The position numbers and the translations under genes are program-made. A DNA stretch of 64,000 nucleotides from Dissulfurimicrobium hydrothermale (GTDB lineage Bacteria > Desulfobacterota > Dissulfuribacteria > Dissulfuribacterales > Sh68): contig NZ_CP085041.1 in assembly GCF_022026155.1 (NCBI RefSeq), forward strand, positions 1,210,306-1,274,305, in the 5' to 3' direction. Positions within the stretch are counted from its first letter, which is position 1; each line of letters begins with the position of its first letter. Below, piece after piece: positions 12,222 through 52,820 of this stretch. The notes under the pieces were generated by a model. The model saw only the letters and a program-made list of their open reading frames with translations, did not search any database and was not told the DNA's origin.

Positions 12222-12524
12222 ATGACGACGATAGAAAAAAGTAAGGGCAAGATTAAATCAGGCAAGGCGGTCGGCTATATATGTCTCGATGCATTTTCTT
12301 ATTACAACCGGCGCATCGTCTGTCCGACATGCGGGAATGACAGGCATTTTTATGAAATAGCCGAAGATGTAATGCTTACCACCCGCTATACACAAAATCC
12401 TGACGGCAGTTTTACCCCACAGAGCGATGAATCAAGGATTCTGGGTGAGGTGAAGTTGTATTGTGGGGAGTGCCAGACGGATATGAGCCAATTCCATAGC
12501 AGGTTCATGGAGATGCTCTTTTGA
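12222..12524 (+). CDS. small zinc-ribbon-like protein of unknown function
   Basis: 100 residues, no recognised family. Two Cys pairs, CPTCGNDRHFYE at about residues 36-47 and CGECQTDMSQFH at about 82-93, could form one four-Cys zinc site. The segment between them is polar with a tyrosine/threonine-rich strand (VMLTTRYTQN). Its stop (TGA 12522-12524) overlaps the TTG start of the ATP-grasp gene, so the two are very likely made together. It could be a partner or a substrate of that ligase. Confidence 0.7.
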   Translation: MTTIEKSKGKIKSGKAVGYICLDAFSYYNRRIVCPTCGNDRHFYEIAEDVMLTTRYTQNPDGSFTPQSDESRILGEVKLYCGECQTDMSQFHSRFMEMLF

Positions 12525-13291
12525 ATGTCGCCGCACGTTCCCCGCTTGTGATTACAGACAACCGCTCTTTCAGGGAACACATGGCCGTGCTCGGTTACGG
12601 TGACAAGGTCATAGGTCTCCTGAATATAAAACCAACAGAAGAGGTCTTGTTTCTTGATCTGGTTGAGCGCGGCGTCATCTTGTTTCCTTCGGCCCTCGCC
12701 CAGCAATTAAGCAGGTCAAAGTGTCTTCAGGCTATGATATTCAAGGAATGGATGGTTCCACATACCTTTGTGGCCAGAGATCGCCATGATTTGGTCCAAG
12801 GTATTACTTTTTATGGAAAACAAGGTGTAAAAAGCGTAGTTACTAAGCAGAATCGTCTGAATTGCGGCCTTGGTATACATATATGGTCTTCCATCGAGGA
12901 TGTATATAACCAGGCGTGTTTTGGTTCTTTGGGATATCCATTTGTTGTTCAGCCTTTTGTTGAGTCTGTTACAGATGTCCGTGTAGTGATTATAGGAGAT
13001 TATGTTGAGGCATATTGGCGGCGGAATCCTTACACGCTGCGGAACAACCTGTATTTTGGGGGGGTCAGTGGCGAATACAGGCTTACTGACGAGGAGTTGT
13101 CGCTGTGTAGAAGGGTGATGGACAGAGGAAAATTCCCTTATGCGCATATTGATCTTATGATATCTCCGGCGGGCGTTTTTTTATCTGAAATAAATCTTAG
13201 AGGCGGGCTGAAAGGCGCCAAGATCTCAACTAAAGAATATCATGAGCGCATAGCAGCGCTTGAAGTGGCCTTTGTAGACCAAGGGCCTTGA
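12521..13291 (+). CDS. ATP-grasp ligase (RimK/glutathione-synthetase-like)
   Basis: 256 residues from a TTG start that overlaps the preceding stop (TTGA), with a GGAGA 7 nt upstream; an internal ATG at 12584 is possible but would cut the N-domain. ATP-grasp elements: SVVTKQNRLNCGLGIHIW (flexible loop with ATP-binding Lys), YPFVVQPFVES (hinge, here Q rather than E), VRVVIIGDYVEAYWRR, and the metal-binding end FPYAHIDLMISP followed by FLSEINLRGGL with E and N metal ligands. The family joins a carboxylate to an amine or thiol by an acyl-phosphate. The substrate is unknown; the upstream zinc-ribbon protein is the obvious candidate partner. Confidence 0.8.
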   Translation: MNVAARSPLVITDNRSFREHMAVLGYGDKVIGLLNIKPTEEVLFLDLVERGVILFPSALAQQLSRSKCLQAMIFKEWMVPHTFVARDRHDLVQGITFYGKQGVKSVVTKQNRLNCGLGIHIWSSIEDVYNQACFGSLGYPFVVQPFVESVTDVRVVIIGDYVEAYWRRNPYTLRNNLYFGGVSGEYRLTDEELSLCRRVMDRGKFPYAHIDLMISPAGVFLSEINLRGGLKGAKISTKEYHERIAALEVAFVDQGP

Positions 13292-13345: not shown

Positions 13346-15043
13346 TTACTTTACCTTTACTGCGTAAAGGATACTTTCGTGGTTTCCTGGTTTTTTGGGA
13401 TTGTTTCTGACGATACAGATCAGAAGCTGCCCGTTTACGTTTGAAATGCCAGATATGCGGCCTCCAAGGGGTTGACTTATTGCTTGCAGGACATATCTGC
13501 CGTCTTGCCATGATAGCATCATTATCCTGTCTTCCATTGCTTCACCATTGTCAGTGGAGTCGCGTCCAGCGAACAGCAGGCACGATAGTCTTGGATCGTT
13601 TGGGTTTGAGACCAAACAGGCCTTCAAGATGCCTTGTCTGGCGATCGGTTGCATTACGGGTTCGGCTGTGGACCAGATAGATTGACCCAGGCTGTTGTAG
13701 ATCGAAAGTCTGCCAAAGATGTCAGCTGCTATGAGTTTTTGTTCGCCATCTCTGCTAAGATCGGCCCAATATGCGCCCAATATTGAAAATTGAGCCGGGA
13801 ATTTCAATGTGTCGGCGTATAGTATGCCTCTTTGATCGGGTTTAAGTAAATAGAACCTCTGTCCGAACAATGTATCCTGATCAAAACTTTGTCCGACCAT
13901 TGACGGCGTTTTTGAATTGCCTCCCATGTTCAAGAACGCCATCCACAGATTTATCCCGTCTTGGACCTCGATAAGCCTCCCCTCTTTGTAGGAAAGCAGG
14001 ACAGATTTCATCCCTGCATTATCCATAATTATATTGAGGGTGAGCCACCCTTCGCCAGGCATGGCGGAAAAGCTTACTAGACGCCCTGGGCCGTAGAATC
14101 TATACGACGCCGTCGGACCTTGTTGCCTAAAGGGGCAGATGTAAAGCCCAGACGGTACAAGGTAGATCATCTCCAGCTTTCCATCCCCGTTTAGGTCAAG
14201 TATATCCGTTTGTAATGCGCCTTCAGGAAGACGGCCTACAGTTACGGCGTTTGCAAGGTCTATATGTATCTGAGGGTTTGAAGAGGTGACATTCTGTACA
14301 ACCGCATTGGTTTTTTCGGCTGTCTTTTGTTCGGATGTTTCCCACCTGCCTTTTCCGAGAGGATATTGGTGCAGAAGTTTGAATCCAGGCCCATAAACCT
14401 TTAGATCATCTGCCTCAAAAGAAAAAAGTATCTTTATGCCTAGTGTTTCCATAGATTTGGCGTCCAATATCTCTGATGGGACACTGGACGAAGGGAGCCA
14501 TATCAGGTTAGGAAGGGTTTGGATTAGTGTCTCGCAACTATTCTGCGTCGATTTTGAGCTGTTTCCAATTACGCAGGCTGCGGTGATATCGCTGTATCGC
14601 GTAGCGGGTAGCCCCGGGCTGATCAGTGTTTTTCCAGATATTATATGACAATCTGCCTTTTGCTCCTCTAGATGCACTACTTCCAACAAGGCGGCTGGTT
14701 GTTTCAGGTAGCCAATGATTTTTCCATTGTTTTCATGATCTTTTATTGCAATTCCTTTGTTATAAACTATAAAGATATCGCCGGTGGTTATACCTTGCGC
14801 CCTGCCTCTATCTATTGTGGCGAGGTCGCCTGTGACATTCATAACCATGGCGGCGATGGGGGCAAAGTCTTTGGCGACTTCAGAATATATAGCCAGGGGC
14901 CCCTGATATGCCGCAGCAAAAGAGGATTGACAAAGGCCTTGGATTATGGCTAGGGCCAACGATAAGATCGTGATAGATGAGATCGCTGGGCGACATGCCA
15001 GGCCTGGTCGTGGTCTATTGGTTGGTGCGTATCCTGGGTGCAT
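13346..15043 (-). CDS. secreted protein with FlgT-C-like and FG-GAP/VCBS-like repeats
   Basis: 565 residues from the ATG at 15043. A hydrophobic segment near residues 20-40 ends in SSFAAAYQG, a likely signal peptide cleaved after AAA. The part after it, VTGDLATIDRGRAQGITTGDIFIVY, resembles the C-terminal domain of the flagellar assembly protein FlgT. The second half holds blade-like repeats with a calcium-type DLNGDGKLEMIYL loop and a second DLSRDGEQKLIAAD loop, typical of FG-GAP beta propellers. It is probably periplasmic or surface-exposed. An upstream extension to 15157 would run into the dsrC coding end and was not used. The role is unknown. Confidence 0.65.
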   Translation of the reverse strand: MHPGYAPTNRPRPGLACRPAISSITILSLALAIIQGLCQSSFAAAYQGPLAIYSEVAKDFAPIAAMVMNVTGDLATIDRGRAQGITTGDIFIVYNKGIAIKDHENNGKIIGYLKQPAALLEVVHLEEQKADCHIISGKTLISPGLPATRYSDITAACVIGNSSKSTQNSCETLIQTLPNLIWLPSSSVPSEILDAKSMETLGIKILFSFEADDLKVYGPGFKLLHQYPLGKGRWETSEQKTAEKTNAVVQNVTSSNPQIHIDLANAVTVGRLPEGALQTDILDLNGDGKLEMIYLVPSGLYICPFRQQGPTASYRFYGPGRLVSFSAMPGEGWLTLNIIMDNAGMKSVLLSYKEGRLIEVQDGINLWMAFLNMGGNSKTPSMVGQSFDQDTLFGQRFYLLKPDQRGILYADTLKFPAQFSILGAYWADLSRDGEQKLIAADIFGRLSIYNSLGQSIWSTAEPVMQPIARQGILKACLVSNPNDPRLSCLLFAGRDSTDNGEAMEDRIMMLSWQDGRYVLQAISQPLGGRISGISNVNGQLLICIVRNNPKKPGNHESILYAVKVK

Positions 15044-15082
15044 AGTTAATTTTGTATTGAGATAAGATAAAAAATATGATAG

Positions 15083-15112
15083 AAAAGCCCTTGCCTTTAG
15101 GCAAGGGCTTTT
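15083..15112 (-). terminator. intrinsic terminator of dsrC
   Basis: Perfect 13-bp stem (AAAAGCCCTTGCC at 15083-15095 with GGCAAGGGCTTTT at 15100-15112) and a 4-nt loop; on the minus strand the stem ends in TTTT and is followed by a further T-rich stretch. It lies 36 nt after the dsrC stop and separates dsrC from the FG-GAP gene. Confidence 0.9.
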
Positions 15113-15147
15113 GAGGAGGAAATAAAAACAAGGGCTTAAAAATAAAC

Positions 15148-15468
15148 TTATACGCACCCGGTCGGTTTAGGCAGTCCTGCCATTTTACAAGCTCCCTTGC
15201 CAGGTCCTGACGGGAAGAGCTCATATATCTTCTTAAGGGGGAATCCGGTCGTCTTTGAAAGAATCCTCACCATCGGAGCAATCCCGTTTTTCTTGTAGTA
15301 ATCTTGAAGGATATTTATCATCTTCCAGTGTTCGTCTGTAAGTTCTGATATACCCTCTTGTTCTTTGACGTAATCAACCCATTCGTTGCACCATTCCTCC
15401 ATGCCCTTAGCTAGAAAGCCGTCTTCATCGACTTCAAACGTCTTTCCTTTGTACTCTATTGTTGCCAT
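15148..15468 (-). CDS. dsrC: DsrC-type sulfur carrier protein
   Basis: 106-residue sulfur-carrier and redox partner of dissimilatory sulfite reductase DsrAB and the DsrMKJOP membrane complex. Both C-terminal redox cysteines are present, C94 and the penultimate C105 (KGACKMAGLPKPTGCV), spaced by ten residues as in genuine DsrC; TusE homologues for tRNA thiolation usually keep only the last. The helix-turn-helix-like GIAPMVRILSKTTGFPLKKI is conserved. It is monocistronic: a near-consensus promoter and AAGGAGG lie upstream and a perfect terminator downstream. This is the best marker in the window of sulfate, sulfite or sulfur-disproportionating metabolism. Confidence 0.95.
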   Translation of the reverse strand: MATIEYKGKTFEVDEDGFLAKGMEEWCNEWVDYVKEQEGISELTDEHWKMINILQDYYKKNGIAPMVRILSKTTGFPLKKIYELFPSGPGKGACKMAGLPKPTGCV

Positions 15469-15527
15469 GCGGTCCTCCTTATGAGATTATTGATACATTT
15501 AATACGTCTTAAGTTTTTTCAATTTGC

Positions 15528-15556
15528 TTCATACTATAGTAAAAAATGTTTGTCAA
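15528..15556 (-). promoter_or_regulatory. sigma-70-type promoter of dsrC
   Basis: On the minus strand TTGACA (15556-15551), a 17-nt spacer and TATGAA (15533-15528), followed by a leader of about 50 nt with AAGGAGG at 15480-15474 and the ATG at 15468. Strong match for a housekeeping promoter and a high-expression ribosome-binding site. Confidence 0.75.
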
Positions 15557-15705
15557 GCCAGACTTGTGCTTTTTTGCATTAATTTATATCAAATTTTATT
15601 TCTTAATTACAGATAGTTGTGAAATGCAACTATAAAAATTAATGTAAAAAATTGAATAATAATTCAAAAAATTGTCTTACATTTAATAGACGGAGGACTG
15701 CAGGT

Positions 15706-17451
15706 TTAGATTGTTGAGAGTTGTTCTCTTGCCCATACGATATCTGGGTCAAGCTCCAAGGCTGCCTCATACCACAAAGCAGCCATTTTTTTCATGCCGA
15801 GAAGGTGGAGATTCCTGCCTATATTTGCATAATCTATAGCCGAGCCAGGGTCAATGGCGATGGCTTGTTCAAAGGCCTCGATGGCCTTTATATAATCACC
15901 CATACGATAAAAACAATAACCAAGGAGATTGTAGGTCTCTTTGAGTTCAGGGTTCAGTCCTTTTGAGCGTTCGAGCTCGACCGCTGCCATCTCAAACTCC
16001 CCTTTTTCTTTGAGACAGAAACCTTTGTGGCAATGGATGCTGGCGAGTTCATCAGGGTCAGGGCCGCGGCTAATGGCCTCGTCATACCAGTGTAGTGCAT
16101 CATCGTATCTGCCACTCCGTTCCAGAAGATGCCCTATATAAAATGCTACTTCATAGCGCCCTTTCGAGGAGATGTGATCAATTTTGTGCAGCACGGATAG
16201 CCCTTCGGCATGGTCTTCTTGTAAAGTGGCGAGGCGAGCGCAATGAAAGACAGGATCTATCTTAATAGTCCTGTCTCTAAAATGGTTGCCGGGGATTATC
16301 GCATATACTGCCGGTATGCCTAGATCGGGGTGCGTTACATCTATGAGGTATGTGTTCATCCCTGCCTTTCTAAGGGCAAGTGCAGCGTTTTCTATCTCAG
16401 TCTTGAAATTTTTCGAGCTGCAGTCAGGAAGGGCGTTTATTGGCGTGATCGATTGCGCCCTTAAGATGTAATCCGCCTCTTCAAGGACTGAGAATTTCGG
16501 GAGGCCGCTTTCAACATATCTTCCCTCTGTATCAAAATCGCCGGCCAACTGGGCTATTTCAGTTATCGCTCTTATGGCCGCCCGTTCCGGGCTGGTCGAT
16601 GTCCCTGCTGTATAAACAATCTCGCTTCTTCTCGGAAATGTGGACGGATCCCATGCAATGGCTCCTACGGTCGGGATGCCGAGACCTAGAGAAAAGTCTT
16701 TAAGGATCAGATGAATGCCCGTCTCTCTGAATTTCCTTACCAATTCCCTTGCAACTGGATTTTGAAGGCTCCCTGGATCGATCGTAGGGGTTTCGAGCTT
16801 GTCCCTGCTTATTATTGAGCACACGTGGCGCTCCACTACCTCGCATATTGCCTGCACAGCCGCCTCTTCCAGTGAATTTCCAGCGGCTGAACCGTTATAT
16901 TCGTTGATGGGCCAGAACCATGACCACGGCAGCAGAAATCCCTTTCCATCATGGGGGCGCAAGGCCTTTGTCCATTTGAAAGACATCGCTGTGGATACAA
17001 GCCACGCCAAGGCCTCTGGGCACCTTGATTCATTTTTGAGGCCAGCGGCCATGAGCATCTCATCTATGGGCAGCAATTCGAACTCATCCCAATCAATGGC
17101 GATATCTGCAAAGATATCTGTAAATTTCCCTTGATTGGATCTCGTACCGTCTTTTACAAAACTAAAGATGCTAAATCTTTCTACGAGTTCCATCACAGCG
17201 CTTGCCTCAGCCTGTTCCGGCGTCGCACCCTTGCCCATCTGTTTTTGAGTGCCAGTGATGCGGCTTGCTTGAGGGGTGTATCGGCTGATATATACAGGTA
17301 TGCCTAGCCGCCCTTTGTCTATGCGTTCGGCCGTCTTGAGTATCTGGGTATCAAAGGCCTCGAGGCGACTTCGTGCCCATGCAACAGTATCGCCGGGGGC
17401 GATGGCCTTGTCTATGTCGGCGCCTGATGCCTTAAAACTGTCTTTAAACAT
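15706..17451 (-). CDS. YcaO-domain protein with C-terminal TPR repeats
   Basis: 581 residues. YcaO enzymes use ATP to activate peptide-amide backbones, giving azolines or thioamides, or to assist methylthiolation. ATP-site elements are visible: EASAVMELVERFSIF (about 80-94), AAVQAICEVVERHVCSI (about 193-209) and AAIRAITEIAQLAGDFD (about 287-303). Residues about 420-581 are TPR repeats (for example NLLGYCFYRMGDYIKAIEAF and YANIGRNLHLLGMKKMAALW). Length and layout resemble E. coli YcaO, which acts with RimO on ribosomal protein S12, rather than RiPP cyclodehydratases. It sits 5 nt after a DUF5335-like gene and upstream of dsrC. No precursor peptide or TfuA-like partner was seen. Confidence 0.82.
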   Translation of the reverse strand: MFKDSFKASGADIDKAIAPGDTVAWARSRLEAFDTQILKTAERIDKGRLGIPVYISRYTPQASRITGTQKQMGKGATPEQAEASAVMELVERFSIFSFVKDGTRSNQGKFTDIFADIAIDWDEFELLPIDEMLMAAGLKNESRCPEALAWLVSTAMSFKWTKALRPHDGKGFLLPWSWFWPINEYNGSAAGNSLEEAAVQAICEVVERHVCSIISRDKLETPTIDPGSLQNPVARELVRKFRETGIHLILKDFSLGLGIPTVGAIAWDPSTFPRRSEIVYTAGTSTSPERAAIRAITEIAQLAGDFDTEGRYVESGLPKFSVLEEADYILRAQSITPINALPDCSSKNFKTEIENAALALRKAGMNTYLIDVTHPDLGIPAVYAIIPGNHFRDRTIKIDPVFHCARLATLQEDHAEGLSVLHKIDHISSKGRYEVAFYIGHLLERSGRYDDALHWYDEAISRGPDPDELASIHCHKGFCLKEKGEFEMAAVELERSKGLNPELKETYNLLGYCFYRMGDYIKAIEAFEQAIAIDPGSAIDYANIGRNLHLLGMKKMAALWYEAALELDPDIVWAREQLSTI

Positions 17452-17456
17452 GCGTC

Positions 17457-17954
17457 TTATCCTTTCAGAAAGCGGCGTGACACGTCTTCAATGACGGATT
17501 CAGCCTCGTACCAGTCTTGTTGGTCGAGACCACAGGCCATTCCGCGGTTTTCGTATATATGGTAGGCGATGCATGATGTCCAGTGTCGCCTACCTTCCCC
17601 GGGACTGTTTTCTGCAAATGCAAGATATGCTGTCCGTGATCCAGGCGCGCCCTGGATGTTGAGGCCTATGACCGGATTGTCGGCTTCATAATCATTGACA
17701 AGATAGACAGCCCGCGGGCCATTTATTGTATGTGCAAGGTTTAGAGGATGCGCTGCATCCTGTCCACCAAAATAGACTTCCATCTTGTTGGCCTTAGGCT
17801 CATAGGAAAGACCGACAAAAACTGCTCCCTGTCCCCCTATTATCGTATTTTCTCCCAATACAAATGTAGCCAAGCGGAACTGATTCTGTCTGTTGAAATC
17901 CCTTATGAAACTCTGCCATTCGCCCTTGATGATCCGTGTCTTTTTGGGTGCCAT
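17457..17954 (-). CDS. DUF5335-like protein of unknown function
   Basis: 165 residues, soluble, probably cytoplasmic. The opening EWQSFIRDFNRQNQFRLATF resembles DUF5335 proteins, which share an EWxxFFxxFSRxHxxWLVT start; this identification is from memory of the pattern only. It carries two Cys (CIAYHIYENRGMACG). A strong AAGGAGG precedes the ATG. It is 5 nt upstream of the YcaO-TPR gene on the same strand, so they are very probably one operon and may act together. Confidence 0.55.
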   Translation of the reverse strand: MAPKKTRIIKGEWQSFIRDFNRQNQFRLATFVLGENTIIGGQGAVFVGLSYEPKANKMEVYFGGQDAAHPLNLAHTINGPRAVYLVNDYEADNPVIGLNIQGAPGSRTAYLAFAENSPGEGRRHWTSCIAYHIYENRGMACGLDQQDWYEAESVIEDVSRRFLKG

Positions 17955-51400: not shown

Positions 51401-52820
51401 GGCCTCCTGCTCCCTTTGAAAACTCGATGAACCTCCTGACCGCCCACGGTGTGTTGCCGAAATGGATGTGTATGTAGCTGCCCAGCGTATTTTTGATTAG
51501 ATAGCCACTGAACCTCCCGTCTGCAAGCCGGAATGTACGATCGACCTCAGGCGGCATCTCTTCTATGGTCGAATAGTGGAACTCATGGCCTTTGAGCCTG
51601 GGGATGCCATGCTGTGCAAAGGCGGTCCGCAAACCCTTGTACATAGCCGCAAATGGTCCAGAGACAGGTTCTATCTCCCTGTATCCGAGTGCTGACAAGC
51701 GGTAGTTCATCTTGGCTCTGACCGGATATATGCCGACCATTGGATAGAATTTTTGGTCAAGGCCTTCTATACCCTGGGTAAGGTACATAAAACCGCCGCA
51801 TTCGGCATAAACGACCCCGCCTCTAATCGACCAGTCCCTGATCGAATTGAGCATCTCATGGTTTTCAGAGAGCCGTTCAGCATAGAGTTCAGGATAGCCG
51901 CCGCCAAGATATATAGCATCTATACCATCAGGGATGGCTGTATCTGAAAGTGGACTGAATTCTGTTATCCTCGCCCCCATTTTTCGGAACAGATCGAGAT
52001 TGTCTTCATAATAGAAACAGAATGCCTCATCTCTTGCAATTCCTATGGTTATTTCATGCCCTTGGGTGTATCCGTCATTGTTGTTCTTAGGACCGTCTCC
52101 GCCTGTCTCGGAAATAGTACAGTCCAGATTCAAAGGCTCTTTGATTTTAACTGGTTTTATCTGGAGGTCCATAAGTCTTTCTAGATCAATGAAATCGGAC
52201 ACCGCACAGGAAAGCCTTTCTACAGCCTTTTTATCGAGCGGGGCGTCGTTTGCCATAAATAGCCCGAGGTGGCGGCTTGGTATCTCAAACCATTGATCCC
52301 TTGGGAGATATCCTAGAAATAGATCAGAGTTGCAATGCCTTACGATGGCGTTTTTCAATAGATCAAGGTGTCTCCGGCTCCCGACTCTGTTAAGAATTAT
52401 TCCCTGGACAAGATCTGGGTCGATTACCTCAAAGCCCTTTATAATAGCGGCGACCGTTTCTGCCATTGAACGTACGTCAATGACCAGGATAACCGGTAAT
52501 CCAAGGCATCTTGCGAGAGATGCACTGCTCGAGACCCCGCCGTCAAAAAGACCCATAACCCCCTCGACTACGGCTATATCCGCCCCTTTTGCATGGTCAA
52601 AGAAGGTCTCTTTTACAAAATTTTCCCCGCACATCCATATATCCAGGTTCCTTGACATCCTTCCTGTCACCATGTGGTGCAGGGTGGGGTCTATGAAGTC
52701 GGGCCCGCATTTAAAGGGTTGGACATCGAGACCCTTTGACTTAAGGGCCGCCATGATGCCAAGTGCCACGGTGGTTTTACCTACTCCGCTTTGGGTGCCG
52801 GCGATGAGGAACGTCTTCAT
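51390..52820 (-). CDS. cbiA: cobyrinate a,c-diamide synthase (CbiA/CobB)
   Basis: 476 residues from the ATG at 52820. N-terminal dethiobiotin-synthetase-like ATPase (FLIAGTQSGVGKTTVALG, VVEGVMGLFDGG) and C-terminal class I glutaminase-like domain (YLGGGYPELYAERL, VYAECGGFMYLTQG with the nucleophile Cys). It amidates the a and c side chains with glutamine. A start at 52847 would overlap cbiK and add nine residues. Confidence 0.95.
   Translation of the reverse strand: MKTFLIAGTQSGVGKTTVALGIMAALKSKGLDVQPFKCGPDFIDPTLHHMVTGRMSRNLDIWMCGENFVKETFFDHAKGADIAVVEGVMGLFDGGVSSSASLARCLGLPVILVIDVRSMAETVAAIIKGFEVIDPDLVQGIILNRVGSRRHLDLLKNAIVRHCNSDLFLGYLPRDQWFEIPSRHLGLFMANDAPLDKKAVERLSCAVSDFIDLERLMDLQIKPVKIKEPLNLDCTISETGGDGPKNNNDGYTQGHEITIGIARDEAFCFYYEDNLDLFRKMGARITEFSPLSDTAIPDGIDAIYLGGGYPELYAERLSENHEMLNSIRDWSIRGGVVYAECGGFMYLTQGIEGLDQKFYPMVGIYPVRAKMNYRLSALGYREIEPVSGPFAAMYKGLRTAFAQHGIPRLKGHEFHYSTIEEMPPEVDRTFRLADGRFSGYLIKNTLGSYIHIHFGNTPWAVRRFIEFSKGAGGHGI

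Follow-up and report, generated by a model that had tools for sequence, protein, structure and literature searches.

The window analysed here, a stretch of 64,000 nucleotides of the Dissulfurimicrobium hydrothermale genome (NZ_CP085041.1, positions 1,210,306 to 1,274,305), carries on its minus strand a row of three genes, in order of transcription a DUF2934/DUF5335-like gene, a gene for a YcaO protein with tetratricopeptide repeats (YcaO-TPR) and dsrC, as had been noticed in the initial annotation and is confirmed by the open reading frames (ORFs) and Pfam. YcaO-TPR probably thioamidates glycine 90 (Gly90) of DsrC, the hub of dissimilatory sulfite reduction. This assignment draws on observations of protein family, predicted fold, ATP motif, co-occurrence, gene adjacency, a glycine/alanine pattern at residue 90 and a published nominal mass shift of +16 Da. 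If true, DsrC would bear the third protein thioamide after methyl-coenzyme M reductase and uL16 (count according to PMC13063428), DVU2210 of Desulfovibrio vulgaris would obtain a function, and the chemistry of methanogenesis would be linked with sulfate respiration. A search of the open-access literature, with subscription literature outside its range, yielded no paper pairing YcaO with DsrC or DsrC with a thioamide, and none joining YcaO, thioamide and sulfate-reducing bacteria. Two papers combine thioamide terms with dissimilatory sulfite or sulfate metabolism, apparently on other subjects, and DVU2210 is mentioned in two.

Association of YcaO-TPR with one type of DsrC

A single set of 394 phylum genomes, all 90% or more complete, was searched for YcaO-TPR, DsrC and DsrA, resulting in raw matches in 164 (E <= 1e-30), 216 (E <= 1e-20) and 204 genomes (E <= 1e-30), respectively. 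The YcaO-TPR search scored the three best candidates per genome; the hits in genomes G074, G093 and G156 were dropped as weak or paralogous, and a 45%-identical fragment in G294 was kept. With close DsrC defined by E <= 1e-45, both proteins were present in 158 genomes and neither in 225, YcaO-TPR was found alone in three and close DsrC alone in eight, i.e. 11 genomes disagree. Rechecks covered 18 genomes including the mismatches known at that time (YcaO domain alone) and 50 genomes (YcaO profile). Because the 204 DsrA-positive genomes are split into 156 with close DsrC plus YcaO-TPR and 37 with distant DsrC only and without YcaO-TPR, YcaO-TPR follows one DsrC type and not DsrAB in general.

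The two genes are also neighbours in several lineages. Of 20 genomes in the order of the source genome, 16 have dsrC immediately downstream of ycaO-TPR (gaps of 96-331 nt). The dsrC gene is located directly upstream in all nine genomes of family f23, which takes in Desulfarculaceae (gaps of 169-201 nt), and downstream in both genomes of genus g58 of family f47. Among the best 80 named loci, 17 have dsrC next to ycaO-TPR, one of them in an additional metagenome-assembled genome of the Desulfobacterales (L156). Adjacency is thereby seen in at least four lineages, with dsrC downstream in three and upstream in one, and these may represent independent gains. The association of YcaO-TPR with dsrC is not due to chance, and the conservation in relatives on which the initial annotation had made its idea depend is found both in co-occurrence and in gene order.

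Residue 90 of the DsrC arm

Gly90 belongs to the arm FPSGPGKGACKMAGLPKPTGCV and precedes the inner cysteine C94 by four residues. It is present in 165 of the 165 YcaO-TPR-positive genomes in which a two-cysteine DsrC was read, a number made up of 145 genomes of a first census (nine of them from the relatives search alone) and 20 later ones; outside this count stand G113 and G296, with only a DsrC-like paralogue found, and G198, G325 and G387, which were not read. DsrA-positive genomes without YcaO-TPR number 45, and the 36 that were read divide into 31 with Ala90, four with Gly90 and one without a true DsrC (G186). No YcaO at all was detected by the YcaO profile recheck in the 29 of these 31 Ala90 genomes that have distant DsrC. 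The outgroups Escherichia coli TusE, Archaeoglobus fulgidus 1sau and 1ji8 likewise have GPA. Family f45 contains both states, with Gly90 together with YcaO-TPR in G107 and G132, and Ala90 without the orthologue in G074 and G156.

A published mass shift on the DsrC arm

An open-literature search for the D. vulgaris arm peptide retrieved one paper, PMC3125180. For the pull-downs with ApsA, CooH and Roo, Table 1 of PMC3125180 assigns 'Trimethylation+Oxidation' to the D. vulgaris DsrC peptide LK*EVYELFPSGPGK. Met, Trp and Cys are absent from this peptide, whose C-terminal end is the GPG in question. An exchange of oxygen for sulfur (+15.977) has the same nominal mass as an oxidation (+15.995), the difference of 0.018 Da corresponding to 11 ppm on LK*EVYELFPSGPGK. 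As stated in that source, mass accuracy was insufficient to tell trimethylation from acetylation; the tolerance of 100 ppm refers to the Mascot search, and modifications were assigned by ProteinPilot with spectra checked by hand. The lysines matching K79 and K49 are given there as trimethylated (K49 as trimethylated or acetylated), and K79 is invariant among 90 aligned DsrC. We infer that the +16 Da on the DsrC peptide is sulfur, located on Gly90 rather than Gly88 and installed by YcaO-TPR. Formation of an azoline on the DsrC arm was considered as well and rejected, since it would cost 18 Da and a functional residue and the published shift is +16.

ATP motif and predicted fold of YcaO-TPR

The protein belongs to the YcaO superfamily (Pfam PF02624, 227 bits, cut-off 25.7) and additionally has TPRs. 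Its ATP-motif residues E196, Q200, E204, E207 and R208 are invariant among 39 diverse aligned sequences, as are E88, E91, R294 and E298, which we take to be ATP/Mg-binding residues. The AlphaFold2 model (mean predicted local distance difference test score 92.1, predicted template modelling score 0.90) has Methanocaldococcus jannaschii YcaO 6peu as best fold match in the PDB, followed by E. coli YcaO 4q86 (Foldseek). A profile search of the PDB ranked several TPR proteins higher and gave MJ1094 as the best YcaO, with 144 bits versus 65.5 for E. coli YcaO. The best NCBIfam score was obtained with TIGR03266, the model of the McrA thioamidation YcaO, although its 126 bits stay below the equivalog cut-off of 365. 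The partner, DsrC, matches PF04358 with 123 bits (cut-off 24.9) and has both C94 and C105. The source genome, a single contig of 2.03 Mb, was found to contain one YcaO, one DsrC match (E <= 1e-20) and one dsrA match.

In the proposed reaction, the Gly90 backbone carbonyl would be activated by YcaO-TPR at the expense of ATP, and the carbonyl oxygen would be exchanged for sulfur from sulfide, a metabolite that the cells themselves produce. The TPR domain may bind DsrC or dimerise YcaO-TPR. Sulfite-derived sulfur travels between DsrAB and the membrane on the DsrC arm, which the resulting thioamide could make stiffer or tune. It is conceivable, if doubtful, that thioglycine stands beside the inner arm cysteine in the DsrC of most YcaO-TPR-positive sulfate reducers of the Desulfobacterota, that its sulfur is directly involved either in the handling of the DsrC trisulfide or in docking, be it to DsrAB or to the membrane complex, and that it is the molybdate target in cells without sat. 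Molybdate acting at this thioglycine in cells without sat would explain resistance upon loss of YcaO-TPR.

Sulfur-handling neighbours and DsrC as a possible sulfur donor

In other families, at loci without DsrC in the fetched flanks, one representative per neighbour type was assigned with Pfam. HcyBio and Thi4 are encoded beside YcaO-TPR in f45, a NIL-ferredoxin in f36, f45 and f69, an MnmA-type enzyme in f36 and f69, a PP-loop protein, presumably LarE-like, in f40, f43 and f55, and a JAB protein in f78. Neighbours of YcaO-TPR in some other families, namely HcyBio, Thi4, NIL-ferredoxin, the MnmA-type enzyme and the PP-loop protein, handle sulfur, a point in favour of thioamidation by YcaO-TPR, and such sulfur-transfer or sulfur-incorporating enzymes would also suit a role of DsrC as sulfur donor, in which persulfidated DsrC feeds YcaO-TPR and the protein thioamidated by the latter is a different one. 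In E. coli, the DsrC relative TusE passes sulfur to MnmA. Furthermore, where E. coli YcaO obtains its sulfur is described as open in PMC13063428. We nevertheless regard a donor role as unlikely, given that it leaves both the Gly90 versus Ala90 pattern and the +16 on the DsrC peptide unexplained, and that free sulfide is made by these cells.

Evidence against thioamidation of DsrC and the possibility of coincidence

Several observations weigh against Gly90 as the target of YcaO-TPR. The E-value that divides close from distant DsrC was chosen with the tables already in view. Residue 90 changes only twice on the DsrC tree, the second time inside f45, and this tree has few columns and poor resolution; because of the two events, a sign test cannot reach significance. 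In f45, the change at residue 90 is accompanied by V to I in column 67 and S to C in column 71, both towards the residues most common in the distant group, and columns 55, 96 and more likewise separate the two DsrC groups. G074 and G156 retain a YcaO of about 485 residues that they share with G107 and G132, and they hold in addition a YcaO of 574-578 residues with the YcaO domain at the C-terminal end. Gly90 occurs without any YcaO in ten genomes, comprising G069, G214, G251, G369, G221 and five of five genomes read in family f81 (G222, G241, G260, G329, G375); the DsrA search (E <= 1e-30) gave no dsrA match in G214, G251 and the five f81 genomes. Gly90 in G196 is accompanied solely by a different YcaO, in a frame of 555 residues. 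These Gly90 genomes without YcaO-TPR are compatible with an unmodified glycine, or with a function of Gly90 that has nothing to do with YcaO. Native DsrABC crystal structures in the PDB have Gly at this position, and we know of no thioamide reported in them.

The same applies to gene order and to the peptide. No dsrC was found near YcaO-TPR in 63 of the best 80 named loci, dsrC sits elsewhere in most families beyond the lineages named above (39 of 61 loci without DsrC in the fetched flanks, other genera of f47 among them), and the adjacency in the order of the source genome belongs to a syntenic block with EF-G that is kept in most families and was therefore counted as one event. As for the mass shift, the authors of PMC3125180 call the modification oxidation and, in the parts of the article that concern it here, suggest no thioamide; Table 1 contains modified peptides only and so gives no occupancy. 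The +16 could be a hydroxylation, or the whole +58 could be a different pair of modifications.

Genetic data come from D. vulgaris, in which the YcaO-TPR protein DVU2210 was found via molybdate resistance in a sat-deleted background, the joint loss of DVU2210 and sat leading to resistance (PMC7774982). The printed 20-residue ATP motif of DVU2210, on which the comparison was based, is very similar to those of the f47 members L073 and L074. Also against our proposal, the DVU2210 deletion strain grew like the wild type on sulfate, and in the authors' opinion DVU2210 is not directly involved in sulfate reduction (PMC7774982). However, near-normal growth on sulfate is a weak argument against a thioamidase, because Methanosarcina acetivorans without ycaO-tfuA is viable: according to PMC5589413, this strain lacks the McrA thioglycine, its growth at 36 C with methanol or trimethylamine is that of the wild type, and it grows more poorly on acetate, on dimethylsulfide and at higher temperature. 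Speaking for a link between the two proteins, DsrC (DVU2776) and DVU2210 are both given among the high-score mutated genes in evolved syntrophic cocultures of D. vulgaris (PMC8319347); the passages of PMC4215793 examined for YcaO offered nothing further.

The small number of residue-90 changes, the ten Gly90 genomes devoid of YcaO and the molybdate phenotype of DVU2210 and sat loss (PMC7774982) would all agree with a phylogenetic coincidence, in which DsrC of the type of sulfate-reducing bacteria, Gly90 and YcaO-TPR were co-inherited in one lineage and YcaO-TPR has an unrelated role, e.g. the ATP-wasting molybdate activation proposed for DVU2210. We consider this quite unlikely. It is at odds with a gene adjacency that covers both arrangements and at least four lineages, with the f45 contrast and with the +16 peptide, none of which is explained by molybdate turnover, and plasmid-borne DVU2210 did not render E. 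coli molybdate-sensitive (PMC7774982).

Ribosomal proteins as possible alternative substrates

E. coli YcaO, which has a TPR domain too, thioamidates uL16 (PMC13063428), and YcaO-TPR might do the same, its link to DsrC then reflecting sulfide-rich life alone. This appears improbable, since the five best local matches of YcaO-TPR to E. coli YcaO have only 24.7-30.6% identity, and NF040716, the model of the E. coli-type YcaO (S12 accessory), gives 50 bits versus an equivalog cut-off of 700. The low isoelectric point that is tied to uL16 (PMC13063428) is 4.38 in E. coli YcaO, in contrast to a family median of 5.25 for YcaO-TPR (range 4.60-8.39, 61 proteins), and modification of uL16 offers no reason why YcaO-TPR should track the DsrC type. 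The initial annotation had named ribosomal S12 and DsrC itself as candidate substrates, of which DsrC is favoured by the Gly90 census and the +16 Da peptide of D. vulgaris. A function as S12 methylthiolation accessory together with RimO, the former annotation of E. coli YcaO, is very improbable although rimO, whose presence had been left to be checked, exists in the source genome (419 bits, cut-off 357), as the low S12-accessory score and the reassignment of E. coli YcaO to uL16 thioamidation (PMC13063428) leave S12 unsupported.

Organization of the locus

The features of the locus are summarized in Table 1.

Table 1. Features of the ycaO-TPR/dsrC locus, with positions in the window
Feature	Position	Strand	Description
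DUF5335/DUF2934-like protein, 165 aa	17457-17954	-	first gene of likely operon; local accessory
ycaO-TPR, 581 aa	15706-17451	-	YcaO domain (residues 72-388) and C-terminal TPR repeats; proposed ATP-dependent thioamide-forming enzyme
ycaO-dsrC spacer, 237 nt, AT-rich	15469-15705	-	may hold dsrC promoter
dsrC, 106 aa	15148-15468	-	both arm cysteines C94 and C105; proposed substrate
GGC codon of DsrC Gly90, within arm FPSGPGKGACKMAGLPKPTGCV	15199-15201	-	proposed thioamidation site

The first protein of the row matches DUF2934 above the cut-off (33.4 versus 22 bits, Pfam) and DUF5335 (PF17269) below the gathering cut-off (23.5 versus 27 bits). The gap of 5 nt to ycaO makes a single operon likely here, as was initially assumed, but this partner was found in just 20 of the 394 phylum genomes and lies far from ycaO in G267 and G211. 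It was therefore rejected as a core partner outside the order of the source genome and is merely a local partner of YcaO-TPR. The length and AT-richness of the spacer between ycaO and dsrC suggest that dsrC may have its own promoter; a consensus scan of this spacer gave no promoter or terminator match on the minus strand. In line with the initial annotation, no precursor of a ribosomally synthesized and post-translationally modified peptide was noticed beside ycaO among the ORFs of at least 70 residues in the window list.

A short Cys-containing ORF of 58-59 residues (112 as called in L062) lies directly downstream of ycaO-TPR in L058, L059 and L062; the L059 copy had no Pfam match, and the ORF was dismissed as a YcaO-TPR substrate since it is present in three families alone (f56, f80, f84). 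Some f45 and f2 genomes encode a second YcaO of about 480-500 residues beside YcaO-TPR (L034, L035, L257-L259), and the gene preceding it in G156 reads to us like an alanine racemase. Opposite dsrC, the window contains on the plus strand a gene for a 100-residue protein (12222-12524) and a RimK-like ATP-grasp gene (12521-13291), the latter staying close to dsrC in six of the order's families. The gene directly after dsrC (13346-15157, minus strand) encodes a 603-residue protein that weakly matches FG-GAP and is conserved across six of the order's families. In f81 genomes, which have neither a dsrA match nor a YcaO, DsrC-like proteins (L183, L197, L346, L347, L350) combine Gly90 with the arm terminus EGCV or EGCA. 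Six DsrC-like stretches, several of them sharing open frames, form two clusters on contig C20 of G323 (G323:C20:35882-37301 and 51432-52067), and the true dsrC of this genome lies on another contig.

Comparison with known systems

The window DsrC is a member of the TusE/DsrC sulfur-relay family (115 bits, cut-off 53.5); unlike DsrC, E. coli TusE reads GPAKQAT, with Ala at the position of residue 90, and has no inner arm cysteine. DVU2210 is a YcaO-TPR protein that has been studied for molybdate sensitivity and, judging by locus numbers, not beside dsrC. E. coli YcaO shares the arrangement of a YcaO domain and C-terminal TPR and acts on a folded protein, uL16 (PMC13063428), but it is distant in identity, more acidic than the YcaO-TPR family median and differs in the substrate proposed. 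The closest counterpart is the YcaO for thioamidation of the McrA glycine (MJ1094, Methanopyrus YcaO; TIGR03266), which is the best NCBIfam, PDB-profile YcaO and Foldseek match. YcaO-TPR differs from it by the extra TPR domain, its bacterial origin and the score below the TIGR03266 cut-off. As described in PMC5589413, the methanogen locus is needed for the thioglycine of a central enzyme of energy metabolism.

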